64,000 bases of DNA, from NCBI RefSeq assembly GCF_900141935.1, contig NZ_FQYX01000015.1, positions 1 through 64,000 of the forward strand, read 5' to 3'. Each line of letters begins with the position of its first letter. The first letter of the stretch is position 1. Shown here piece by piece: positions 20,220-43,002 of the stretch. Below the pieces are notes generated by a model that searched no databases, was not told the origin of the DNA, and saw only the letters and a list, made by a program, of their open reading frames with translations. The position numbers and the translations under genes are program-made. The stretch comes from Arenibacter nanhaiticus. GTDB taxonomy: Bacteria > Bacteroidota > Bacteroidia > Flavobacteriales > Flavobacteriaceae.

Positions 20220-20292
20220 CACGGGCGGAGAGACTCGAACTCCCGACACCTGGTTTTGGAGACCAGTGCTCTACCAACTGAGCTACGCCCGT
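20220..20292 (-). tRNA. tRNA-Trp (CCA)
   Basis: A 73-nt cloverleaf on the minus strand with acceptor ACGGGCG/CGCCCGT, D arm TAGCTCAGTTGGTAGAGC, and T arm GGGAGTTCGAACTCTCC. The anticodon loop CTCCAAA between CTGGT and ACCAG gives CCA, for tryptophan. It lies between tuf and secE. No CCA tail is encoded. Confidence 0.96.
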
Positions 20293-20306
20293 CTATATTT
20301 ACATGG

Positions 20307-20336
20307 AAAGGTGTCTCACTAGAGCAAGACACCCTT
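20307..20336 (-). other. Hairpin between tuf and tRNA-Trp
   Basis: GGTGTCT (20310-20316) pairs with AGACACC (20327-20333) around a 10-nt loop, with two more A-T pairs beyond one mismatch. No T run follows on the minus strand, so it is more likely an mRNA 3' end or processing site for tuf than a full terminator. Confidence 0.5.
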
Positions 20337-20354
20337 CATGCAATATATTCAATA

Positions 20355-21542
20355 TTAGTCTATAATCTTAGTTACCTGACCAGCACCTACCGTTCTACCA
20401 CCTTCACGGATTGCGAAACGCAAACCTTCATTTAAAGCGATCGGAGACAATAGATCTACAATAATAGTAAGGTTATCACCTGGCATAACCATTTCTACTC
20501 CTTCAGGAAGATTAATAGTACCAGTAACATCAGTTGTTCTTACGTAGAACTGAGGACGGTAGTTATTGTGGAATGGAGTGTGACGTCCACCTTCTTCTTT
20601 TTTAAGGATATACACCTCAGCTTCAAATTTAGCGTGCGGCTTCACAGAACCTGGCTTACAGATTACCATTCCTCTTTTTACTTGAGTCTTATCAATACCT
20701 CTCAAAAGAAGACCTACGTTATCACCAGCTTCACCTCTATCCAATATCTTACGGAACATCTCTACCCCTGTAATAGTTGAAGTCAATTTCTCAGCACCCA
20801 TACCGATGATCTCTACTGGATCTCCAGTGTTAGCAACCCCTGTTTCGATACGACCTGTAGCAACAGTTCCACGACCAGTAATTGTAAATACATCTTCAAC
20901 AGGCATCAAGAAGTTCTTATCAACATCTCTCTGTGGCAATTCAATCCAGCTATCAACAGCCTCCATCAAAGACATAACTGTATCAACCCATTTTTGCTCA
21001 CCATTCAATGCACCTAAAGCAGAACCAGAAATAACAGGACCATTATCACCGTCATACTCATAGAAAGAAAGCAACTCTCTTACTTCCATCTCTACTAACT
21101 CTAACAACTCCTCATCATCAACCATGTCAACCTTGTTCAAGAAAACAACGATTCTTGGAATACCAACCTGACGACCTAAAAGGATGTGCTCACGGGTTTG
21201 TGGCATAGGACCATCCGTAGCAGCAACAACTAAAATCGCACCGTCCATTTGAGCAGCACCAGTAACCATATTCTTAACGTAATCCGCGTGACCTGGACAA
21301 TCTACGTGTGCATAGTGACGATTCGCAGTAGAATACTCTACGTGAGACGTATTAATAGTAATACCTCTTTCTTTTTCTTCTGGAGCATTATCAATAGAGT
21401 CAAAACTTCTCAATTCAGAAAGACCTGCGTTAGCCAATACCGTAGTAATCGCAGCAGTCAATGTAGTTTTACCGTGATCCACGTGTCCAATAGTACCTAT
21501 ATTTAAATGCGGTTTGGAACGATCAAATGTTGCCTTTGCCAT
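20355..21542 (-). CDS. tuf: Elongation factor Tu
   Basis: A 395-residue GTPase that carries aminoacyl-tRNA to the ribosome. G1 GHVDHGKTT is at residues 19-27, G3 DCPGH near 81 and G4 NKVD near 136. Domains II and III are complete, ending in [15 protein letters not shown]. It sits inside a tRNA cluster (four tRNAs before, one after), the same arrangement as the tufB operon of Escherichia coli. No second tuf copy is in this window. Confidence 0.98.
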
Positions 21543-21596
21543 GTTTGTTAAATTTAATTCTTAGTTTATATTAGTGTACAAATTATGCCTTAATTG

Positions 21597-21668
21597 AGCC
21601 AATGATGAGATTTGAACTCATGACCTCTTCCTTACCAAGGAAACGCTCTACCCCTGAGCTACACCGGC
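21597..21668 (-). tRNA. tRNA-Thr (GGT)
   Basis: A 72-nt tRNA with acceptor GCCGGTG pairing CATTGGC (two G-T pairs), D arm TAGCTCAGGGGTAGAGC and T arm ATGAGTTCAAATCTCAT. The anticodon loop TTGGTAA gives GGT, threonine. It is the tRNA nearest tuf, 54 bp upstream of its start. Confidence 0.95.
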
Positions 21669-21840
21669 ATTTTTCTCTTAACACCCGAGAGACTTATACT
21701 CATAAGCACCTACTCAAAGATCAAAAATTTCAGGCCAAAAAAACCTTTTTGGCCGCGCAAAAAACCCGACTACAACGCCAAGCCCTTTTAATTATAATCA
21801 CATAAAGCCCCATACGAAGGAGCCTTTTGTTTTAAAATAG

Positions 21841-21913
21841 AGCGGGAGACCGGGTTCGAACCGGCGACATTCAGCTTGGAAGGCTGACGCTCTACCAACT
21901 GAGCTACTCCCGC
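21841..21913 (-). tRNA. tRNA-Gly (TCC)
   Basis: A 73-nt tRNA with acceptor GCGGGAG/CTCCCGC, T arm CCGGTTCGAACCCGG and anticodon loop CTTCCAA, giving TCC, glycine. Confidence 0.96.
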
Positions 21914-22003
21914 ATTCTAATTTCCAGGCAAACCTAAAAATTATATTCAATATTTCAAAAATTATTTCGCCGTACTTTCGTACTCAAATCTTTCGATTCG
22001 TTG

Positions 22004-22085
<82 letters not shown>

Positions 22086-22139
22086 AACACTAATATTTAA
22101 AAGAACCTTGAAAAACCTATTGGTATTTCCAATATTTTG

Positions 22140-22213
22140 AGCCGATAGAGGGACTCGAACCCACGACCTGCTGATTACAAATCAGCTGCTCTAGCCAGCT
22201 GAGCTACATCGGC
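22140..22213 (-). tRNA. tRNA-Thr (TGT)
   Basis: A 74-nt tRNA with acceptor GCCGATG/TATCGGC (one mispaired closing base), D arm TAGCTCAGCTGGCTAGAGC and T arm GTGGGTTCGAGTCCCTC. The anticodon loop TTTGTAA gives TGT, threonine. It is the first gene of the superoperon, about 45 nt after the predicted transcription start. Confidence 0.95.
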
Positions 22214-35446: not shown

Positions 35447-36025
35447 ATGAAAAAAAGTATCTTAAGCTTAGTATTAGCCGTTGTAACAGGTTTCACAGCA
35501 ACAGCAGCAACACCGATAGACGGCGTTAAAAAAGAAGTTAAAACCGCTGAGAGCACTGTAACTTGGAAAGGATACAAAGTCACCGGATCTCATTATGGTA
35601 CCGTAGCCTTGAAAAAAGGTGCTTTGGTTTTTGATGGCGACAAACTTACCGGAGGTGAATTCGTAGTAGATATGACTACTTTAATAGCTACCGACTTGGA
35701 AGGTGAGTATAGAACTAAATTGGAAGGTCACTTAAAATCTGATGATTTCTTTGGTGTTGCGAACAACCCTACTTCTAAACTTATCTTTAAAAAAGTAAAA
35801 GCTAGTGGAAAAAACTCCTATAAAGTTACTGGAGATTTAACCATTAAAGGAATTACCAAGCCTGTAACTTTCGATATCTCTGTTTACGGAAACAAAGCTA
35901 CTGCAAGCTTAAAAGTAGACCGTTCTTTGTACAACGTACAATATGGTTCTGGAAGTTTCTTTGATAACCTAGGAGACAAAACAATTTATGACGAATTTGA
36001 TTTGGTTGTAGATTTAGCTTTCTAA
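35447..36025 (+). CDS. YceI family periplasmic protein
   Basis: A 192-residue exported lipid-binding beta-barrel of the YceI family, probably binding an isoprenoid. The signal peptide (MKKSILSLVLAVVTGFTATA) is followed by STVTWKGYKVTGSHYGTVAL. The conserved TSKLIFKKVKASG and GDLTIKGITKPVTFDISVYG are near 103-145. It closes the marR operon; a hairpin terminator comes 26 bp later. MarR-YceI pairs are common in Flavobacteriia, and induction under stress or by quinones is an inference. Confidence 0.92.
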   Translation: MKKSILSLVLAVVTGFTATAATPIDGVKKEVKTAESTVTWKGYKVTGSHYGTVALKKGALVFDGDKLTGGEFVVDMTTLIATDLEGEYRTKLEGHLKSDDFFGVANNPTSKLIFKKVKASGKNSYKVTGDLTIKGITKPVTFDISVYGNKATASLKVDRSLYNVQYGSGSFFDNLGDKTIYDEFDLVVDLAF

Positions 36026-36050
36026 GACCATCTTATATATGAATGTTTTA

Positions 36051-36074
36051 AACCTCACTTTTGTGAGGTTTTTT
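36051..36074 (+). terminator. Terminator of the marR-YceI operon
   Basis: AACCTCAC (36051-36058), loop TTTT, GTGAGGTT (36063-36070), then TTTTATTT. A classic intrinsic terminator. Confidence 0.88.
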
Positions 36075-36094
36075 ATTTAATTACATAACATTGA

Positions 36095-36125
36095 TTTGTA
36101 ATTAAGAAATTCATCCTTATATTTG
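36095..36125 (+). promoter_or_regulatory. trp operon promoter
   Basis: TTTG (36095-36098), exactly 19 bp, TATATTTG (36118-36125): a perfect Bacteroidota promoter. Its -7 box ends only 5 bp before the ATG of the leader peptide, so the transcript should start at or within a few bases of that ATG. Confidence 0.85.
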
Positions 36126-36130
36126 ACGCA

Positions 36131-36187
36131 ATGAAGAACAGAATATCAAATACTTGGTGGTGGACTAACTTACGGCAAACATCGTGA
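36131..36187 (+). CDS. trpL: trp operon leader peptide
   Basis: An 18-residue peptide, MKNRISNTWWWTNLRQTS, with three consecutive Trp codons at 36155-36163. It lies between a perfect promoter and a rho-independent terminator, 115 bp before trpE. This is the sensing part of a translation-coupled attenuator: scarcity of charged tRNA-Trp stalls the ribosome on the Trp codons. Too short for ordinary gene calling; found by reading the leader. It is not expected to have a function as a protein. Confidence 0.88.
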   Translation: MKNRISNTWWWTNLRQTS

Positions 36188-36247
36188 GCAAAGCATCATT
36201 GTAGTTAAACTATAGAAAAAGGCTTGTCATCACGACAAGCCTTTTTT
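36183..36247 (+). terminator. trp attenuator: antiterminator and terminator
   Basis: The terminator is a 13-bp stem (36216-36228 with 36234-36246, AAAAAGGCTTGTC and complement, loop ATCAC) followed by six Ts. Upstream, CGTGA (36183-36187, which contains the leader stop codon) and AAGC (36191-36194) can pair with TCACG and GCTT in the left arm and loop of the terminator. Only one of the two structures can form. A ribosome at the stop codon covers the upstream strand and lets the terminator form; a ribosome stalled at the Trp codons leaves it free. Probably belongs to the class named Bacteroid-trp. Confidence 0.8.
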
Positions 36248-36302: not shown

Positions 36303-37700
36303 ATGAAGTACCCATTACATTCTCATCACAAAAAAATCCTTGCAGACACCATTACCCCTGTAAGTGTATATCTTAAAATAAGGGACAGATTCCCCAATAG
36401 TATTCTATTGGAAAGTAGCGATTACCATGCTAATGACAATAGTTTTTCATACATCTGCTGTAACCCCATTGCTTCTATTAGGGTAGAAAACGAATTGGTA
36501 ATACAACAGTTCCCCGACGGCAGGTCTGAAGAGATCCGCATAGACAAGGACACCAATATTCCAAGGATACTGCACGATTTCAGTCGAAAATTTGAAGCGG
36601 ACACCAACGATTTTAAATTTATCAACAATGGTTTGTTCGGGTATATGTCCTATAACGCGGTGCGATATTATGAAGACCTAGAAATTTCAAAAAAACCGGA
36701 TTCTTTGGAGATCCCGGATATCTATTATGCGGTTTATCAAAATATCATCGCCATCAACCACTTTAAGAACGAGGCTTATATTTTTGCCCATTGCTATAAA
36801 TCGGAAAATAATATTTCTGAAATACAACAAATCTTAAGTGCCAAAACCTTCGCTTCCTATAATTTCTCTAAAGAAGGCCTTCCTGTATCTAACTTAAAAG
36901 ACGAGGAGTTTATAGCCCAAGTAGCAATGGCAAAAAAACACTGTCAACGCGGCGATGTTTTTCAATTGGTACTCTCCAGAAGGTTTTCCCAAGATTTTAA
37001 GGGAGACGAATTTAATGTGTATAGGGCCTTGCGCTCCATAAACCCTTCTCCTTATTTGTTTTATTTCGACTATGGCGATTTCAAAATTTTCGGAAGTTCC
37101 CCAGAAGCCCAATTGATCGTAAAGGAAGGCAAGGCCGAGATTCACCCCATAGCAGGTACCTTTAAAAGAACCGGTAATGATGAGCAGGATGCAGAACTTG
37201 CCAAACAATTACGGGCCGATGACAAGGAAAATAGCGAGCATGTTATGTTGGTAGATCTGGCCAGGAACGACCTCAGTAGAAATGGCAGCGAGGTAGCCGT
37301 GGAAAAATATAGGGAGGTACAATTTTTCTCGCATGTTATTCACTTGGTTTCAAAAGTTTCCGGGAAAATCAAAAAAGAAATCTCGACCATGAAAGTCGTA
37401 GCAGATACCTTCCCTGCCGGAACATTAAGTGGTGCCCCGAAACATATGGCCATGCAATTGATAGAGAAATACGAAAAAACCAGTAGAGGTTATTATGGTG
37501 GAGCCATTGGTTTTATGGATTTTAACGGCAATTTTAATCACGCTATCATGATCCGTACTTTCTTGAGCAAGAACCATCAGCTGCATTACCAGGCCGGCGC
37601 TGGTTTGGTTGCTGCTTCTAACCCTGCCGATGAATTACAGGAAACCTATAACAAACTGGGCGCTTTAACCAAAGCCTTAGAAATAGCAGAGACCCTATAA
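36303..37700 (+). CDS. trpE: Anthranilate synthase component I
   Basis: A 465-residue chorismate-binding enzyme, converting chorismate to anthranilate with ammonia supplied by TrpG. The N-terminal domain has LLESSDYH near 35, part of the Trp feedback-binding LLES motif. The chorismate-binding domain includes FQLVLSRRFSQDF near 220, PEAQLIVKEGKAEIHPIAGT near 262, ADDKENSEHVMLVDLARNDL near 301 and PAGTLSGAPK near 371. First structural gene of trpEGDCFBA, controlled by the attenuator upstream. Confidence 0.96.
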   Translation: MKYPLHSHHKKILADTITPVSVYLKIRDRFPNSILLESSDYHANDNSFSYICCNPIASIRVENELVIQQFPDGRSEEIRIDKDTNIPRILHDFSRKFEADTNDFKFINNGLFGYMSYNAVRYYEDLEISKKPDSLEIPDIYYAVYQNIIAINHFKNEAYIFAHCYKSENNISEIQQILSAKTFASYNFSKEGLPVSNLKDEEFIAQVAMAKKHCQRGDVFQLVLSRRFSQDFKGDEFNVYRALRSINPSPYLFYFDYGDFKIFGSSPEAQLIVKEGKAEIHPIAGTFKRTGNDEQDAELAKQLRADDKENSEHVMLVDLARNDLSRNGSEVAVEKYREVQFFSHVIHLVSKVSGKIKKEISTMKVVADTFPAGTLSGAPKHMAMQLIEKYEKTSRGYYGGAIGFMDFNGNFNHAIMIRTFLSKNHQLHYQAGAGLVAASNPADELQETYNKLGALTKALEIAETL

Positions 37701-37748
37701 TCCGATCATACATTATTGGCGGAACTATAAAACACAGAGATAAAAAAC

Positions 37749-38363
37749 ATGAACAACAACATACATTCCGAATCTAATCCCTCTTCCTCAAAGCCATCAG
37801 CATTGGAAGTTTTAGTTATAGACAACTACGATAGTTTTACCTATAACCTTGTACATTACCTAGAAGATTTAGGTTGTGTGGTAACGGTAAAAAGAAACGA
37901 TCAATTACGCCTTGAAGAAGTAGACGCTTTTGATAAAATTGTTCTTTCTCCAGGCCCAGGTATTCCGGACGAAGCTGGACTATTAAAGGAAATTATTGCT
38001 ACCTACGCTCCGACCAAAAGCATTTTTGGCGTTTGTCTAGGTCAGCAGGCCATTGCGGAGGTCTTCGGTGGCTCACTCATAAACATAGACCAAGTATACC
38101 ACGGTATTGCTACCAGTATAAATATTATTAAAGATGATGTTCTATTTAAAGGAATGCCCAAGGAAATTGAAGTTGGCCGTTATCATTCTTGGGTAGTTCA
38201 CCCCGAATTGCCCGATGTTTTGGAAGCCACTTCCTTGGATGAAAACGGACAGGTAATGTCTTTACGCCACAAATTATATGATGTGTGTGCCGTACAATTT
38301 CATCCAGAATCCGTGCTAACCCCAAAAGGAAAGGACATGCTTAAGAATTGGCTCGAAAAGTAA
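37749..38363 (+). CDS. trpG: Anthranilate synthase component II, glutamine amidotransferase
   Basis: A 204-residue class I glutamine amidotransferase. The catalytic Cys is in FGVCLGQQAIAEVFGG near residue 97; His and Glu are in VQFHPES near 183-189. The start MNNNIHSESNPSSSKPSALE adds about 18 polar residues before the usual LVIDNYDSFTYNLVHYLEDL, a small extension. It follows trpE after 48 bp. Confidence 0.95.
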   Translation: MNNNIHSESNPSSSKPSALEVLVIDNYDSFTYNLVHYLEDLGCVVTVKRNDQLRLEEVDAFDKIVLSPGPGIPDEAGLLKEIIATYAPTKSIFGVCLGQQAIAEVFGGSLINIDQVYHGIATSINIIKDDVLFKGMPKEIEVGRYHSWVVHPELPDVLEATSLDENGQVMSLRHKLYDVCAVQFHPESVLTPKGKDMLKNWLEK

Positions 38364-38482
38364 CAATCGGACTTTAAAGATCTAACAGGACTAGTACACC
38401 TATTAGTATCCCATTAAAAAATAGCGAACCGGGGACTGACATTTATAATCATCAGCACCGTTTGCATAAAAAAGGAATTAGA

Positions 38483-39478
38483 ATGAAAGATATATTAAAC
38501 AGGCTAATCAATCACGATGTTCTTCCTAAGGAGGTAGCCAAGGAAGTTTTGGTCAATATTGCAAAAGGAGATTACAACACGAGTCAGATTGCGGCTTTTT
38601 TAACCGTATATATGATGCGTAGCGTTACTATTGAAGAACTAGAAGGTTTTAGAGATGCTTTATTGGAGTTGTGTTTGGCGGTCGATTTATCGGCTTACAA
38701 CCCCATAGATCTCTGTGGTACCGGTGGCGACGGCAAGGATACTTTTAACATCTCTACACTCGCCAGTTTTGTAACTGCCGGGGCCGATGTTAAAGTAAGC
38801 AAGCATGGTAATTACGGGGTATCTTCTTCTTGTGGAAGTAGTAATGTTATGGAGTACCTGGGGGTTAAATTTAGCAATGACCCTGGTTTTTTAGAAAAAT
38901 GCATCGATAAGGCTGGGATATGTGTTTTACATGCACCTTTGTTTCACCCTGCCATGAAAAATGTAGCACCTATTCGCCGAGAACTAGGGGTAAAAACCTT
39001 CTTCAATATGTTGGGGCCTATGGTAAATCCGGCTTTCCCAAAAAACCAGACCGTAGGGGTGTTTAATTTAGAATTGGCCAGAATGTACGGGTATCTATAT
39101 CGAAAGACCGATATAAAATTTACGGTATTACATGCCTTGGACGGTTATGATGAAATATCGTTGACCGGAGATACCAAAACCATCACCAATCATAGTGAGA
39201 GAATGTTAAAACCTTCCGATTTTGGGGTGCCAACCATCTCCCAAAACGATATTACAGGAGGCGGAAGCATCGAAAAATCGGCACAAATATTCCTTAAGGT
39301 GCTTGAAGGAAAAGGTACAGAAGCTCAAAACAATGTTGTCTGTGCCAATGCAGGGATGGCTATTGCTACAGTAAAAGGCTTGAGTCCATTACAAGGTTTT
39401 GAACAGGCGATGGAATCCTTACAGAGCGGTAAAGGACTGGCATCTCTCAAAAAATTACAGGCATTAAGCGCACTATAA
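38483..39478 (+). CDS. trpD: Anthranilate phosphoribosyltransferase
   Basis: A 331-residue enzyme that joins anthranilate to PRPP. The glycine-rich PRPP motif DLCGTGGDGKDTFNIST is near 76-92, and KHGNYGVSSSCGSSNVMEYL near 107-126. I start at the ATG at 38483 (MKDILNRLINHDVL); the reading frame stays open upstream to a TTG, but family members begin here. About 120 bp separate it from trpG with no clear terminator. Confidence 0.95.
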   Translation: MKDILNRLINHDVLPKEVAKEVLVNIAKGDYNTSQIAAFLTVYMMRSVTIEELEGFRDALLELCLAVDLSAYNPIDLCGTGGDGKDTFNISTLASFVTAGADVKVSKHGNYGVSSSCGSSNVMEYLGVKFSNDPGFLEKCIDKAGICVLHAPLFHPAMKNVAPIRRELGVKTFFNMLGPMVNPAFPKNQTVGVFNLELARMYGYLYRKTDIKFTVLHALDGYDEISLTGDTKTITNHSERMLKPSDFGVPTISQNDITGGGSIEKSAQIFLKVLEGKGTEAQNNVVCANAGMAIATVKGLSPLQGFEQAMESLQSGKGLASLKKLQALSAL

Positions 39479-39508
39479 ATTTAAACACTACCCCTCAAGG
39501 TTAAAAAA

Positions 39509-40291
39509 ATGAATATACTCGATAAAATAGTCATTGACAAACGCAAGGAAGTAGCCTTAAAAAAATCTATCATTCCTATTTCACAATTGGAAAATTCCGT
39601 GCTTTTTGATCGTCCTACCGTTTCCTTGGCACAAGCCCTAAGAAACAGCAGCAGCGGTATCATTGCAGAACACAAGCGCAGGTCGCCCTCTAAAGCTGTC
39701 ATCAACCAAAACAGCAGTGTGAGCGAGGTAGCCGTAGGCTACGAGCATGCCGGGGTATGCGGCATGTCGGTATTAACCGATGGTAAGTACTTTGGAGGTT
39801 CTTTGGACGATTTGCTTCTTGCACGAGCATCGGTACAACTCCCTCTTCTTAGAAAAGAATTTATTATAGACGAATATCAGATCATAGAAGCAAAGGCTTA
39901 TGGGGCCGATGTAATTTTACTGATAGCCGCAATTCTGAGCAGGGAAGAAATAAAAGCCTATTCAGAATTGGCCAAGCAATTGCAGCTCGACGTATTGTTA
40001 GAGGTGCATAATGAGGAGGAACTTTACAAGTCTATTATGCCTAGCATAGATATGTTAGGGGTAAATAATAGAAACTTAAAGACCTTTGAGCTTAGTTTAG
40101 AAACCAGCAAAACACTTTCTCGGTTAATCCCCAACGATTTTGTAAGGGTTTCCGAAAGCGGCATTAGCAATATAGCCGCCATTAAAGAATTACAACCTTA
40201 TGGGTACCAAGGCTTTTTGATTGGGGAGAATTTTATGAAAACCGATGCTCCTGGACAAAGTGCTACTGACTTTATAAATAAATTAAAGTGA
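39509..40291 (+). CDS. trpC: Indole-3-glycerol phosphate synthase
   Basis: A 260-residue TIM-barrel enzyme that closes the indole ring. Seen are IIAEHKRRSPSKAVINQ near 48-64 (active-site Lys and Ser), VLTDGKYFGGSLDDL near 91, RKEFIIDEYQIIEAKAYGAD near 112, and VNNRNLKTFELSLETS near 184. It ends in the ATG of trpF (TGATG overlap). Confidence 0.96.
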   Translation: MNILDKIVIDKRKEVALKKSIIPISQLENSVLFDRPTVSLAQALRNSSSGIIAEHKRRSPSKAVINQNSSVSEVAVGYEHAGVCGMSVLTDGKYFGGSLDDLLLARASVQLPLLRKEFIIDEYQIIEAKAYGADVILLIAAILSREEIKAYSELAKQLQLDVLLEVHNEEELYKSIMPSIDMLGVNNRNLKTFELSLETSKTLSRLIPNDFVRVSESGISNIAAIKELQPYGYQGFLIGENFMKTDAPGQSATDFINKLK

Positions 40292-40911
40292 TGAAACTCA
40301 AAGTATGCGGAATGAAATACCATGATAATATGTTGGCTGTCGCAAATTTACAGCCCGATTACATGGGGTATATATTTTGGGAACCTTCTTCCCGTTATTT
40401 TAATGGCAGCATGCCGAAGATCCCTGACAATATTAAAAAAGTAGGTGTTTTTGTCGACGCCTCCCTTGCCGATATTAGAAAAACTATTGCAACCTATGAC
40501 CTACAGGCAGTACAGTTGCACGGGAAAGAATCGCCAGATTTTTGTAAAGCTTTAAGCGCTACAGCCCTGGGGATCGAAATCATAAAGGTATTTTCTATTA
40601 AAGACGATTTCGATTTTCAAATGTTAACTCCCTACGAAAAGGTATGCGATTACTTTTTATTCGATACCAAGGGGAAACTTCCTGGGGGAAACGGTTATAC
40701 TTTTAGCTGGGAGGTATTACAAGACTACCCTTCGACCAAACCTTACTTTTTAAGTGGTGGTATTGGACTAGAAGAAGCCGACAAGGTGGCCGATTTCCTA
40801 AACCGGCCTGAATCTGAATATTGCTACGCCATTGACGTAAACAGCAAATTCGAAATTAAACCTGGCGAAAAGGACATAGCCCTTTTAAAAGCATTTAAGC
40901 AAAAAATATAA
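40291..40911 (+). CDS. trpF: Phosphoribosylanthranilate isomerase
   Basis: A 206-residue TIM-barrel isomerase. The start MKLKVCGMKY contains the conserved KVCGM catalytic Cys, and YMGYIFWEPSSRYF follows near 29. Later LFDTKGKLPGGNGYTFSWEV carries the catalytic Asp near 128. I use the ATG overlapping the trpC stop; a GTG one codon earlier would only add Met. Tight coupling with trpC is obvious from the overlap. Confidence 0.95.
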   Translation: MKLKVCGMKYHDNMLAVANLQPDYMGYIFWEPSSRYFNGSMPKIPDNIKKVGVFVDASLADIRKTIATYDLQAVQLHGKESPDFCKALSATALGIEIIKVFSIKDDFDFQMLTPYEKVCDYFLFDTKGKLPGGNGYTFSWEVLQDYPSTKPYFLSGGIGLEEADKVADFLNRPESEYCYAIDVNSKFEIKPGEKDIALLKAFKQKI

Positions 40912-40977
40912 AAAAGACCTCCCTGCTTTGGCCATCGTTATTGGCTAATAAAGTATAGGGATAAAACACTTTAAAGA

Positions 40978-42159
40978 ATGAATTATAACGTAGACGAGAA
41001 AGGATATTACGGTGAATTTGGCGGAGCCTTTATTCCCGAAATGTTGTACCCCAATGTAGAGAACCTCAGACAGCAGTATTTAAAGGTTATGGCAGACCCT
41101 ACATTTATAGCTGAATTTGACCAACTATTAAAAGATTATGTAGGCAGGCCTTCTCCCCTATATTTTGCCAAACGCCTTTCGGAAAAATACAACACCAAAA
41201 TATACTTAAAACGCGAAGACCTTAACCATACTGGGGCTCATAAGGTAAACAATACCATTGGGCAGATATTAATGGCCAAACGTTTAGGCAAGACCAGAAT
41301 TATTGCAGAGACCGGCGCCGGGCAGCACGGTGTGGCCACCGCTACGGTTTGTGCCCTTATGGGAATGGCATGTATCGTGTATATGGGTGAAATTGATATT
41401 GCCCGCCAAGCCCCCAATGTTGCTCGAATGAAAATGTTGGGGGCCGAAGTACGGCCTGCACTTTCTGGGAGCAGGACCCTAAAGGATGCGACCAATGAAG
41501 CCATTCGCGATTGGATCAATAATCCGGTAGACACCCATTACATTATAGGTTCTGCCATTGGCCCGCACCCCTACCCCGATATGGTGACCAGGTTTCAGTC
41601 GATTATCTCCGAAGAAATAAAATGGCAGTTAAAAGAAAAGGAAGGCAAGGAAAATCCGCATTACGTGGTAGCCTGTATTGGTGGTGGTAGTAATGCTGCC
41701 GGTACCTTCTATCATTTTTTACACGAAAAGGAAGTTGGCATCATTGCAGTTGAAGCGGCCGGAAAAGGTGTTGATACTGGAGAAAGTGCCGCCACATCGG
41801 TATTGGGCAAAGAAGGAATTATCCACGGTTGTAAAACCCTATTAATGCAGACTCAAGATGGTCAAATCACGGAACCTTATTCTATTTCTGCTGGCTTAGA
41901 CTATCCTGGAGTTGGCCCAATGCATGCCCATTTGTACAAAACAGGACGGGCAGAATTTATTGCAGTAACCGATGATCAGGCGATGCAGGCCGGAATGCAA
42001 CTCTCCAAATTAGAAGGAATTATTCCAGCCATAGAATCATCGCACGCCTTTGCTGTTTTAGAAACAAAAAATTTTAAACCAGATGATGTGGTCGTTATAA
42101 ACCTATCGGGTCGTGGCGATAAAGATTTAGGAACCTATATCGATTATTTTAAACTATAG
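40978..42159 (+). CDS. trpB: Tryptophan synthase beta chain
   Basis: A 393-residue PLP enzyme that joins indole and serine. The PLP lysine is in [19 protein letters not shown] near residue 88. [17 protein letters not shown] is near 114, the phosphate-binding glycine loop [15 protein letters not shown] near 230, and [15 protein letters not shown] near 305. It forms the alpha2beta2 complex with the next gene. Confidence 0.97.
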
Positions 42160-42228
42160 ATTGGAAGGATAAACAGGGAAATAAGCTTATTTCTTTGATT
42201 ATCCCCCAACGATACTATATCCAAAAAG

Positions 42229-43002
42229 ATGAACAGAATAAATCAAAAATTACAAGAGGACAAAAAATTATTGTCTATATATTTTACTGCTGGATACCCT
42301 GCTTTAAACGATACCGTAAAAATCATTCAAGATCTCGAAAAAAACGGGGTCGATATGATAGAGATAGGATTGCCCTTTAGCGACCCTTTGGCCGATGGCC
42401 CAACCATACAGGCCAGTTCTACCCAAGCCTTAACAAACGGAATGACTACCGCTATTTTATTCGAACAGCTTAAAGACATCCGAAAATCGGTTCGTATTCC
42501 TTTGATCATCATGGGGTATTTTAATCCTGTTTTTCAATACGGCGTAGAAGCCTTCTGTAAAAAATGTCAGGAAATTGGGATAGACGGACTTATTTTACCC
42601 GATTTGCCATTAGATGTATATCAGGACCAATACCAGGATATTTTCAAAAAATACGGCCTTGCCAATATCTTTCTAATAACCCCACAGACCAGTGACGAGC
42701 GTATTCTAAAAATAGATGCTGCCTCGGACGGATTTATTTATATGGTCAGTTCTGCCAGCGTTACCGGATCACAGGATGGTTTTGGAAACACTCAAGAACG
42801 GTATTTCCAAAGAATTGCCGATATGCAATTAAAAAACCCTCAGATTATCGGGTTTGGAATCAGTGATGCCGAAACTTTTCAACAAGCAACCAAAACATCC
42901 CAAGGGGCTATTATAGGTTCGGCTTTTGTCAAGCATCTCACCAACCAAGGTGTAGAAAAGATTCCAGATTTTATAGAGGGAATTCTAACGGTCAAACAAT
43001 AA
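42229..43002 (+). CDS. trpA: Tryptophan synthase alpha chain
   Basis: A 257-residue TIM-barrel enzyme that splits indole-3-glycerol phosphate. The catalytic Glu is in MIEIGLPFSDPLADGPTIQ near 44-62, which also holds the catalytic Asp. GYFNPVFQYGVEAFC is near 98 and SSASVTGSQDGF near 176, matching the phosphate-loop region. Last gene of the trp operon; no strong terminator is visible after it. Confidence 0.96.
   Translation: MNRINQKLQEDKKLLSIYFTAGYPALNDTVKIIQDLEKNGVDMIEIGLPFSDPLADGPTIQASSTQALTNGMTTAILFEQLKDIRKSVRIPLIIMGYFNPVFQYGVEAFCKKCQEIGIDGLILPDLPLDVYQDQYQDIFKKYGLANIFLITPQTSDERILKIDAASDGFIYMVSSASVTGSQDGFGNTQERYFQRIADMQLKNPQIIGFGISDAETFQQATKTSQGAIIGSAFVKHLTNQGVEKIPDFIEGILTVKQ

Follow-up and report, generated by a model that had tools for sequence, protein, structure and literature searches.

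A Putative Bacteroid-trp Attenuator and a Predicted Promoter Box Close to Its Leader ATG in Arenibacter nanhaiticus

In Arenibacter nanhaiticus, a short open reading frame (ORF) rich in Trp codons and followed by an intrinsic terminator is found directly upstream of a complete trpEGDCFBA operon (36303–43002), within the 64,000-nt stretch of DNA analysed here (the window). The locus is very probably a ribosome-mediated transcription attenuator of trpEGDCFBA and a member of the Bacteroid-trp family. The attenuator as such is ordinary and already catalogued; the most unusual feature of the leader appears to be a predicted promoter box located a few bases before the ATG. Translation of the leader ORF probably takes place on a leaderless mRNA, since the transcription start predicted at about 36130 would place the ORF at the very 5′ end of the RNA. 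This probable leaderless translation in the Arenibacter–Maribacter–Zobellia–Muricauda clade is the new part: no report of a leaderless trp attenuator in Bacteroidota was found among the open-licence papers listed, covered mostly as titles and the beginnings of abstracts.

Leader, operon and competing folds

The features of the locus are collected in Table 1. A preliminary description, made from the sequence, had located the start, Trp and stop codons of the leader ORF, the motifs CGTGA (36183–36187) and AAGC (36191–36194), their counterparts GCTT (36222–36225) and TCACG (36230–36234), and the run of six T residues; all these positions were confirmed. The 13-bp terminator stem with its T6 tract was borne out as well: the hairpin (36215–36247) comprised 13 Watson–Crick pairs and one G–U pair, with a folding energy of −19.4 kcal/mol (z −8.24, 0/200 shuffles as stable).

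Table 1. Features of the trp leader and its surroundings (window coordinates)
Feature	Position	Strand	Details
YceI-family gene	35447–36025		Upstream of leader; NCBIfam E 1.4e-13, below curated cut-off
Intrinsic terminator 3′ of YceI-family gene	36050–36078 (about)	+	9-bp hairpin, U-rich tract
TTTG, predicted −33 element	36095–36098	+	19 nt before −7 box
Predicted sigma-A −7 element TATATTTG	36118–36125	+	Predicted transcription start 36130 or 36131
Leader peptide ORF MKNRISNTWWWTNLRQTS	36131–36187	+	ATG 36131; stop TGA 36185–36187
Strand 1	36151–36175	+	UAC 36151–36153, UGGUG 36155–36159, CUUACGG 36169–36175
Three tandem Trp codons (TGG ×3)	36155–36163	+	Within 5′ arm of 1:2 hairpin
Strand 2	36182–36194	+	UCGUGA + GC + AAGC; 5′ side of antiterminator, also in 3′ side of 1:2 hairpin
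Strand 3	36222–36235	+	GCUU 36222–36225, UCACGA 36230–36235; 3′ side of antiterminator, inside terminator
Intrinsic terminator (strands 3:4)	36216–36247	+	Stem 36216–36228/36234–36246; U6 36242–36247
trpE	36303–37700	+	NCBIfam TIGR00564 trpE_most best match, E 1.1e-131, 440 bits, below cut-off of 517.7
trpG, trpD, trpC, trpF, trpB, trpA, in order	37749–43002	+	NCBIfam matches

In the RNA from 36176 to 36238, where strand 2 is free and the terminator is only partly made, the minimum free energy (MFE) fold (−15.0 kcal/mol, z −3.97, 0/200 shuffles) consisted of the helices UCGUGA/UCACGA and AAGC/GCUU with a small hairpin inside. Thus, the competing terminator and antiterminator folds are both present and, at the level of structure, mutually exclusive by virtue of the shared strand 3. 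Such mutually exclusive hairpins had been traced by hand before; both helices recur in the MFE fold of the RNA ending at 36238, and their pairing is conserved in relatives, with some compensatory change (see below). The fold of the whole leader was likewise more stable than any of its shuffled versions (z −4.93, 0/200). In the MFE and Rfam consensus structures, strand 1 finds its partners at 36182–36188, 36194–36198 and 36201–36203, the exact pairs varying slightly by fold. Taken alone, the 1:2 hairpin of the A. nanhaiticus sequence was unexceptional (z −0.79, 37/200 shuffles as stable).

Along trpGDCFBA, the NCBIfam cut-offs were passed for TIGR00566, TIGR01245, NF001377, TIGR00263 and TIGR00262, and trpF stayed below the cut-offs. 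The terminator-like hairpin following the YceI-family gene was stable as well (−12.6 kcal/mol, z −5.62, 0/200 shuffles equally stable), so the trp promoter is probably confined to about 36079–36130.

Family membership, conserved pairing and the expected switch

The resemblance to the Bacteroid-trp class, suggested in the preliminary description, held in the covariance-model check: the scan of the whole window with Rfam models returned RF01692 at 36111–36228 with 62.4 bits against a gathering cut-off of 49, spanning the model from 1 to 131 of 131, as the sole Rfam family over its cut-off at the leader. With this family the locus shares the Trp-codon leader, the 1:2 hairpin, the terminator arm GGCUUGUC and the site upstream of trp genes, and nothing in the A. 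nanhaiticus leader disqualifies it. The match was found over the cut-off in all 18 Arenibacter genomes, in 275 of 397 genomes of Flavobacteriaceae, from 178 of 237 sampled genera (over the cut-off in 241 genomes), and in 27 of 395 genomes drawn from the class, family members included (18 over the cut-off). In six loci from other families of the class (L002, L006, L012, L018, L019, L027), the attenuator is followed, as judged by eye, by an apparent trpB, not trpE.

The consensus structure of RF01692 contains the 1:2 hairpin only, does not extend beyond the 5′ arm of the terminator and lacks a 2:3 pairing; the antiterminator analysed here is therefore extra information, although it may already be drawn in the additional file of Weinberg 2010, whose main text names the motif once, in a table. 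Bacteroid-trp was noted upstream of the trp operon of Flavobacterium psychrophilum in a 2019 paper, and in the transcription start map of this species, amino-acid operons are reported to show strong signs of control by leader-peptide attenuation (PMC9723704).

The proteobacterial Trp_leader model (RF00513) had no match over its cut-off in the 64-kb window, its best score in the genome being 30.2 bits (cut-off 41) on another contig, at a place (L001) where the part read shows a terminator-like hairpin. The trp attenuator of Escherichia coli (RF00513) operates by the logic of strands 1–4 with tandem Trp codons, which is common to the A. nanhaiticus leader; the latter differs in its three Trp codons, in the promoter box of the Bacteroidota type and in the RF00513 score below the cut-off.

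Conservation of the pairings was assessed in 171 loci (L002–L172) from the class, family and genus matches. The family loci were the best-scoring matches plus 100 picked among the further matches listed, with weak members under-sampled. Parsing required an ATG and a TGGTGG run and recovered a leader ORF at 166 of these loci; in the other five, kept out of the counts, the Trp run follows GTG (L110, L170) or TTG (L127, L140, L156), as seen by eye. Among leaders parsed by this TGGTGG requirement, 161 of 166 carried three Trp codons and five carried two. Collapsing at 93% similarity yielded 122 leaders, 121 of which were aligned after removal of L012 with its mis-detected terminator.

Covariation, a check set beforehand, turned out to be strong for the terminator and modest for the antiterminator core. 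In the terminator, 94.8% of the cells were paired vs. at most 63.4% when slid, with two-sided changes in 11 of the 13 pairs (121 rows). In the eight-pair antiterminator core of the same alignment, 85.2% of the cells were paired vs. at most 50.8%; its 17 two-sided cells exceeded the shuffled mean of 3.9 (0/500 shuffles as high), yet these changes fell in three pairs, a count that 96 of 500 shuffles reached as well. Six pairs, columns 57–62 with 148–153, each formed in 111 to 118 of 119–120 rows. The core helix shares some bases with the terminator, and the clean evidence is that of columns 61/149 and of UCAC, near-invariant in a loop which a plain terminator would leave free. Columns 61/149 read G–C in 110 rows, A–U in five, U–A in one, G–U in one and otherwise in two; since their 3′ side sits in the terminator loop, the A–U and U–A changes are attributable to the antiterminator and not to the terminator. 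Loci from other families of the class (L002, L004, L005, L006, L018) are among the A–U rows, and the two-sided change may represent one or two old events.

The second helix claimed earlier, AAGC/GCTT, forms in the A. nanhaiticus fold but is only partly kept in relatives: together with its neighbours it was paired in 75.6% of the cells (at most 46.8% when slid), and its G–C pair was unformed in 84 of the 121 rows. The 1:2 hairpin gave mixed counts. Its inner helix was paired in 59.4% of the cells as aligned vs. 61.8% for a slide of −3 columns, consistent with a displacement of strand 1 by three columns in some rows; its outer helix reached 68.6% vs. at most 56.3% when slid, yet four of the six slid versions had more two-sided cells. 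Counting in a single register over all rows was replaced for this hairpin by per-sequence folding, in which strand 2, located in 115 of 121 leaders, paired at least four of its six bases upstream in 108 of the 115. The pre-terminator leader folds of these 115 had a mean z of −2.04, with 73 below −1.64.

The regulation that we infer from these pairings would run as follows. If charged tRNA-Trp is scarce, the ribosome would stall on the Trp codons, located in the 5′ arm of the 1:2 hairpin. Strand 2 would then be available for the 2:3 pairing with the loop and 5′ arm of the terminator, formation of the terminator would be prevented, and trpE would be transcribed. When Trp is plentiful, the ribosome would reach the stop codon at 36185 and cover strand 2, allowing the terminator (3:4) to form. 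Without translation, sequestration of strand 2 in the 1:2 hairpin would lead to termination too.

The preliminary description had stressed the fit of the stop codon and the antiterminator, the TGA being embedded in the CGTGA strand. The overlap is present at 36183–36187 but is only one of several registers in relatives, i.e., the fit is loose rather than exact: in 89 of the 166 parsed leaders the TGA forms part of CGTGA, in 30 the stop codon is located downstream of the motif and in another 30 upstream, and the motif is absent from 17. The overlap was therefore rejected as an essential feature. Relative to the leader ORF, the CGTGA of the 149 leaders possessing it falls in frame 1 (117), frame 2 (28) or frame 0 (4); with all three frames used, the motif is hence conserved at the level of the RNA and not of the peptide. 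Judging from the usual ribosome footprints, a ribosome at the stop codon should cover strand 2 in nearly all registers, so the logic of a block by the ribosome that has finished the peptide survives and exact overlap is unneeded; at two loci, with offsets of 10 and 12 nt, such cover is doubtful.

Promoter box spacing and the mode of leader translation

The −7 box TATATTTG, absent from the preliminary description, is the sole TAHHTTTG on the plus strand between 34301 and 36778. In the window as a whole this pattern occurs at chance frequency (55 found vs. 54.7 expected), hence the case for the box rests on position and conservation. The −7 box is placed at −12 to −5 in F. psychrophilum (PMC9723704) and at T−12 to G−5 in Flavobacterium johnsoniae, with 4 or 5 nt to the transcription start in probable promoters (PMC6847099); by this spacing, the predicted 5′ end of the A. 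nanhaiticus RNA coincides with the leader ATG or lies 1 nt before it. No Shine–Dalgarno site was recognised by eye before the leader ATG; mRNAs of Bacteroidota are reported to lack such sites. Leaderless mRNAs make up 5.5% of 890 in F. psychrophilum (PMC9723704), and leaders of 10 nt or less are implied for 13% in F. johnsoniae (PMC6847099).

The distance d was computed from the first T of a perfect −7 box to the first in-frame ATG. As a genome background, 464 kb (the window plus 400 kb) were taken, where 78 of 477 ORFs of at least 100 aa had a perfect box 11–80 nt upstream, some of them surely by chance; nine of the 78 fell at d = 12–16 and 36 at d = 22–31. Short d is thus the exception in this genome sample, which agrees with the share of leaderless mRNAs in F. 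psychrophilum and with that of leaders of 10 nt or less in F. johnsoniae.

Across the 166 parsed trp leaders, d was 11 in one, 12–16 in 54, 17–21 in 12 and at least 22 in 91 (22–31 in 87), with no box in eight. A sharp mode was found at d = 13 (25 loci from 19 genera, mainly of the Arenibacter–Maribacter–Zobellia–Muricauda clade). The loci with d = 12–16 came from 29 genera, all Flavobacteriaceae; those with d of at least 22 came from 67 genera, including 62 of Flavobacteriaceae. For most other parsed loci of the family, an A-rich 5′ UTR of 10–19 nt is predicted. The A content of the 18 nt before the ATG was 0.24–0.28 in short-d loci vs. 0.58 at d of at least 22. Near d = 13, the short-d consensus reads TTTG-N19-TATATTTGA..CAATG, and TTTG was found at a spacer of 19 from the box in 19 of 29 loci at d = 12–14 and in 22 of 25 at d = 15–16.

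A second set, overlapping the first in part, comprised 80 named trpE neighbours, i.e., the best 80 of 585 relatives, and is biased to near kin. In its first 74 parsed loci, d was 12–16 in 65 (exactly 13 in 39) and at least 17 in eight, with no box in one; the long-d loci include Aquimarina, Bizionia and Gelidibacter. In the remaining six (L185, L192, L196, L209, L210, L230), the leader lies upstream of an extra ORF of about 95 aa located between the leader terminator and trpE, with d of 13 in five and 15 in one. This ORF resembles what we take to be a GIY-YIG nuclease; in L230 the central part of the sequence differs, as though shifted in frame.

The spacing was also followed on a TrpE tree, built by a quick method without a mixture model. 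Out of 151 loci tried (L002–L072, L173–L252), seven were without a long enough ORF, 144 gave proteins and 130 were used. The short/long-d label needs six changes on the tree vs. 30.8 for shuffled labels, the exact number being unsure owing to long branches (L020, L024, L016). One leadered row, Pareuzebyella (L219, d = 38), sits within a short-d clade of 86 rows. Eight rows, leadered or unscored, are outlying, with branches summing to about 10 changes per site; L002, L006, L012, L018, L019 and L027 among them read as TrpB by likeness to TrpB of the window, as judged by eye, and L004 and L005 are presumably TrpB too; all eight would better have been excluded.

We lean slightly towards a fusion of promoter and leader ORF in the trp attenuators of one large flavobacterial clade within the family (Arenibacter, Maribacter, Zobellia, Cellulophaga, Muricauda/Flagellimonas, Eudoraea and kin), extending in Arenibacter to the his and perhaps the ilv attenuator. 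The −7 box would lie 12–16 nt before the ATG, and ribosomes would load directly onto the 5′ end of a leaderless mRNA to make the sensor peptide. Most sister lineages would use an A-rich 5′ UTR, and the initiation mode would have been exchanged several times with the attenuator core unchanged. If the leaderless reading is true, Flavobacteriaceae represent a natural experiment in which one conserved attenuator is served by two ways of ribosome loading, and it becomes testable whether leaderless initiation matters for the coupling of the first ribosome to RNA polymerase.

The same attenuator could also have its leader peptide encoded on an ordinary leadered mRNA from another promoter, e.g., with TTGATTTG (36091–36098) as the −7 box and a 5′ UTR of about 28 nt. 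This sequence matches five of six fixed bases, mRNAs are mostly leadered in both mapped flavobacteria (PMC9723704, PMC6847099), and the perfect boxes before ordinary ORFs of the genome sample peak at d = 22–31. However, in TTGATTTG the A of TA is missing and a G occupies a position at which promoters of F. johnsoniae almost never have one (PMC6847099), the constant distance of 19 nt between TTTG and the nearer box (41 of 54 short-d loci) is what is expected of a −33 element, and the 18 nt before the ATG are devoid of the A-richness of the leadered relatives; such a leadered transcript is hence rather unlikely. It is highly improbable that the leader has no working ribosome switch, either because it is in decay and its terminator constitutive or because an RNA-binding protein exerts the control: the evidence for the attenuator does come from sequence only, and the 1:2 hairpin of the window has no unusual stability, but RF01692 occurs in three quarters of the sampled family genera and is the only Rfam family to exceed its cut-off here, and the terminator and the antiterminator core pair in most of the 121 representative rows.

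A trans-acting role of the RNA ended at 36247, akin to that of rnTrpL in Sinorhizobium, is very unlikely, since nothing in the sequence demands it, although the predicted terminated RNA would start at the ATG, as rnTrpL does (PMC7298713). In the Sinorhizobium meliloti trpLE(G) system, the RNA begins at the trpL ATG, contains consecutive Trp codons and folds into an antiterminator or a terminator (PMC7298713); by description, this is the same layout of codons, folds and predicted RNA start as in A. nanhaiticus, but in an unrelated phylum, and the leaderless status of the A. nanhaiticus leader is a prediction. In Actinobacteria, an attenuator leader ORF on a leaderless mRNA is implied for ilvBNC of Corynebacterium glutamicum (PMC11857589), and leaderless attenuator leaders are indicated for mycobacterial polycysteine sORFs by the title of a reference; these cases, likened by their descriptions, differ in phylum and amino acids.

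Other candidate attenuators of Arenibacter

Upstream of hisG in the A. nanhaiticus genome (L253, contig C28), a poly-His leader MKNKNTHHHHFHTGDQAR is followed by a hairpin and a T-run, probably constituting a his attenuator, with a −7-like box (five of six fixed bases, by eye) 15 nt before the ATG. At this locus the automated parse selected an in-frame ATG further upstream; the homologous ATG has d = 15 by eye. The His leader was found in all 18 Arenibacter genomes, with a scripted d of 15 in 17 and a perfect box in 16. Among the hisG loci of the family, it was present in 29 of the 30 examined (out of 49 matched genomes), with both short and long d.

A probable ilv attenuator precedes ilvD (L255, contig C59): an Ile/Val leader MQINNNIINVVIIIPEMG precedes the terminator-like element AAAGCCTGTATCA...TGATACAGGCTTTTT, and an imperfect −7-like box (five of six fixed bases) lies 12 nt before the leader ATG. 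Taking one ilvD locus per Arenibacter genome (n = 18), d was 12 or 13 in 16, with a perfect box only in L302. Five loci (L286, L287, L290, L291, L296) also have an upstream in-frame ATG; in four of the five, an imperfect box at d = 22 is as good as the nearer one. L289 and L292 yielded no more than such an extended ATG or a different ORF. In view of these alternative ATGs and boxes, the short spacing of the ilv leaders is suggestive only.

Upstream of a prephenate dehydratase gene (L254, contig C41), a Phe-rich leader MTKQYFWIGFYFNFFFQRGMGLF with a terminator-like hairpin is probably a phe attenuator; its imperfect box lies at d = 25 by eye, and it is predicted to be leadered. A Fisher comparison of three of four attenuators with nine of 78 genes at d = 12–16 (p 0.009) is post hoc and carries no weight, and it is unequal in that the his and ilv boxes match five of six fixed bases and perfect boxes were needed in the background.

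Elsewhere in the window, Rfam detected a Flavo-1 RNA (RF01705; 24249–24336, 46.3 bits vs. a cut-off of 42), to which no function was assignable in the F. psychrophilum map (PMC9723704), and five clustered tRNA genes on the minus strand (20220–22213).
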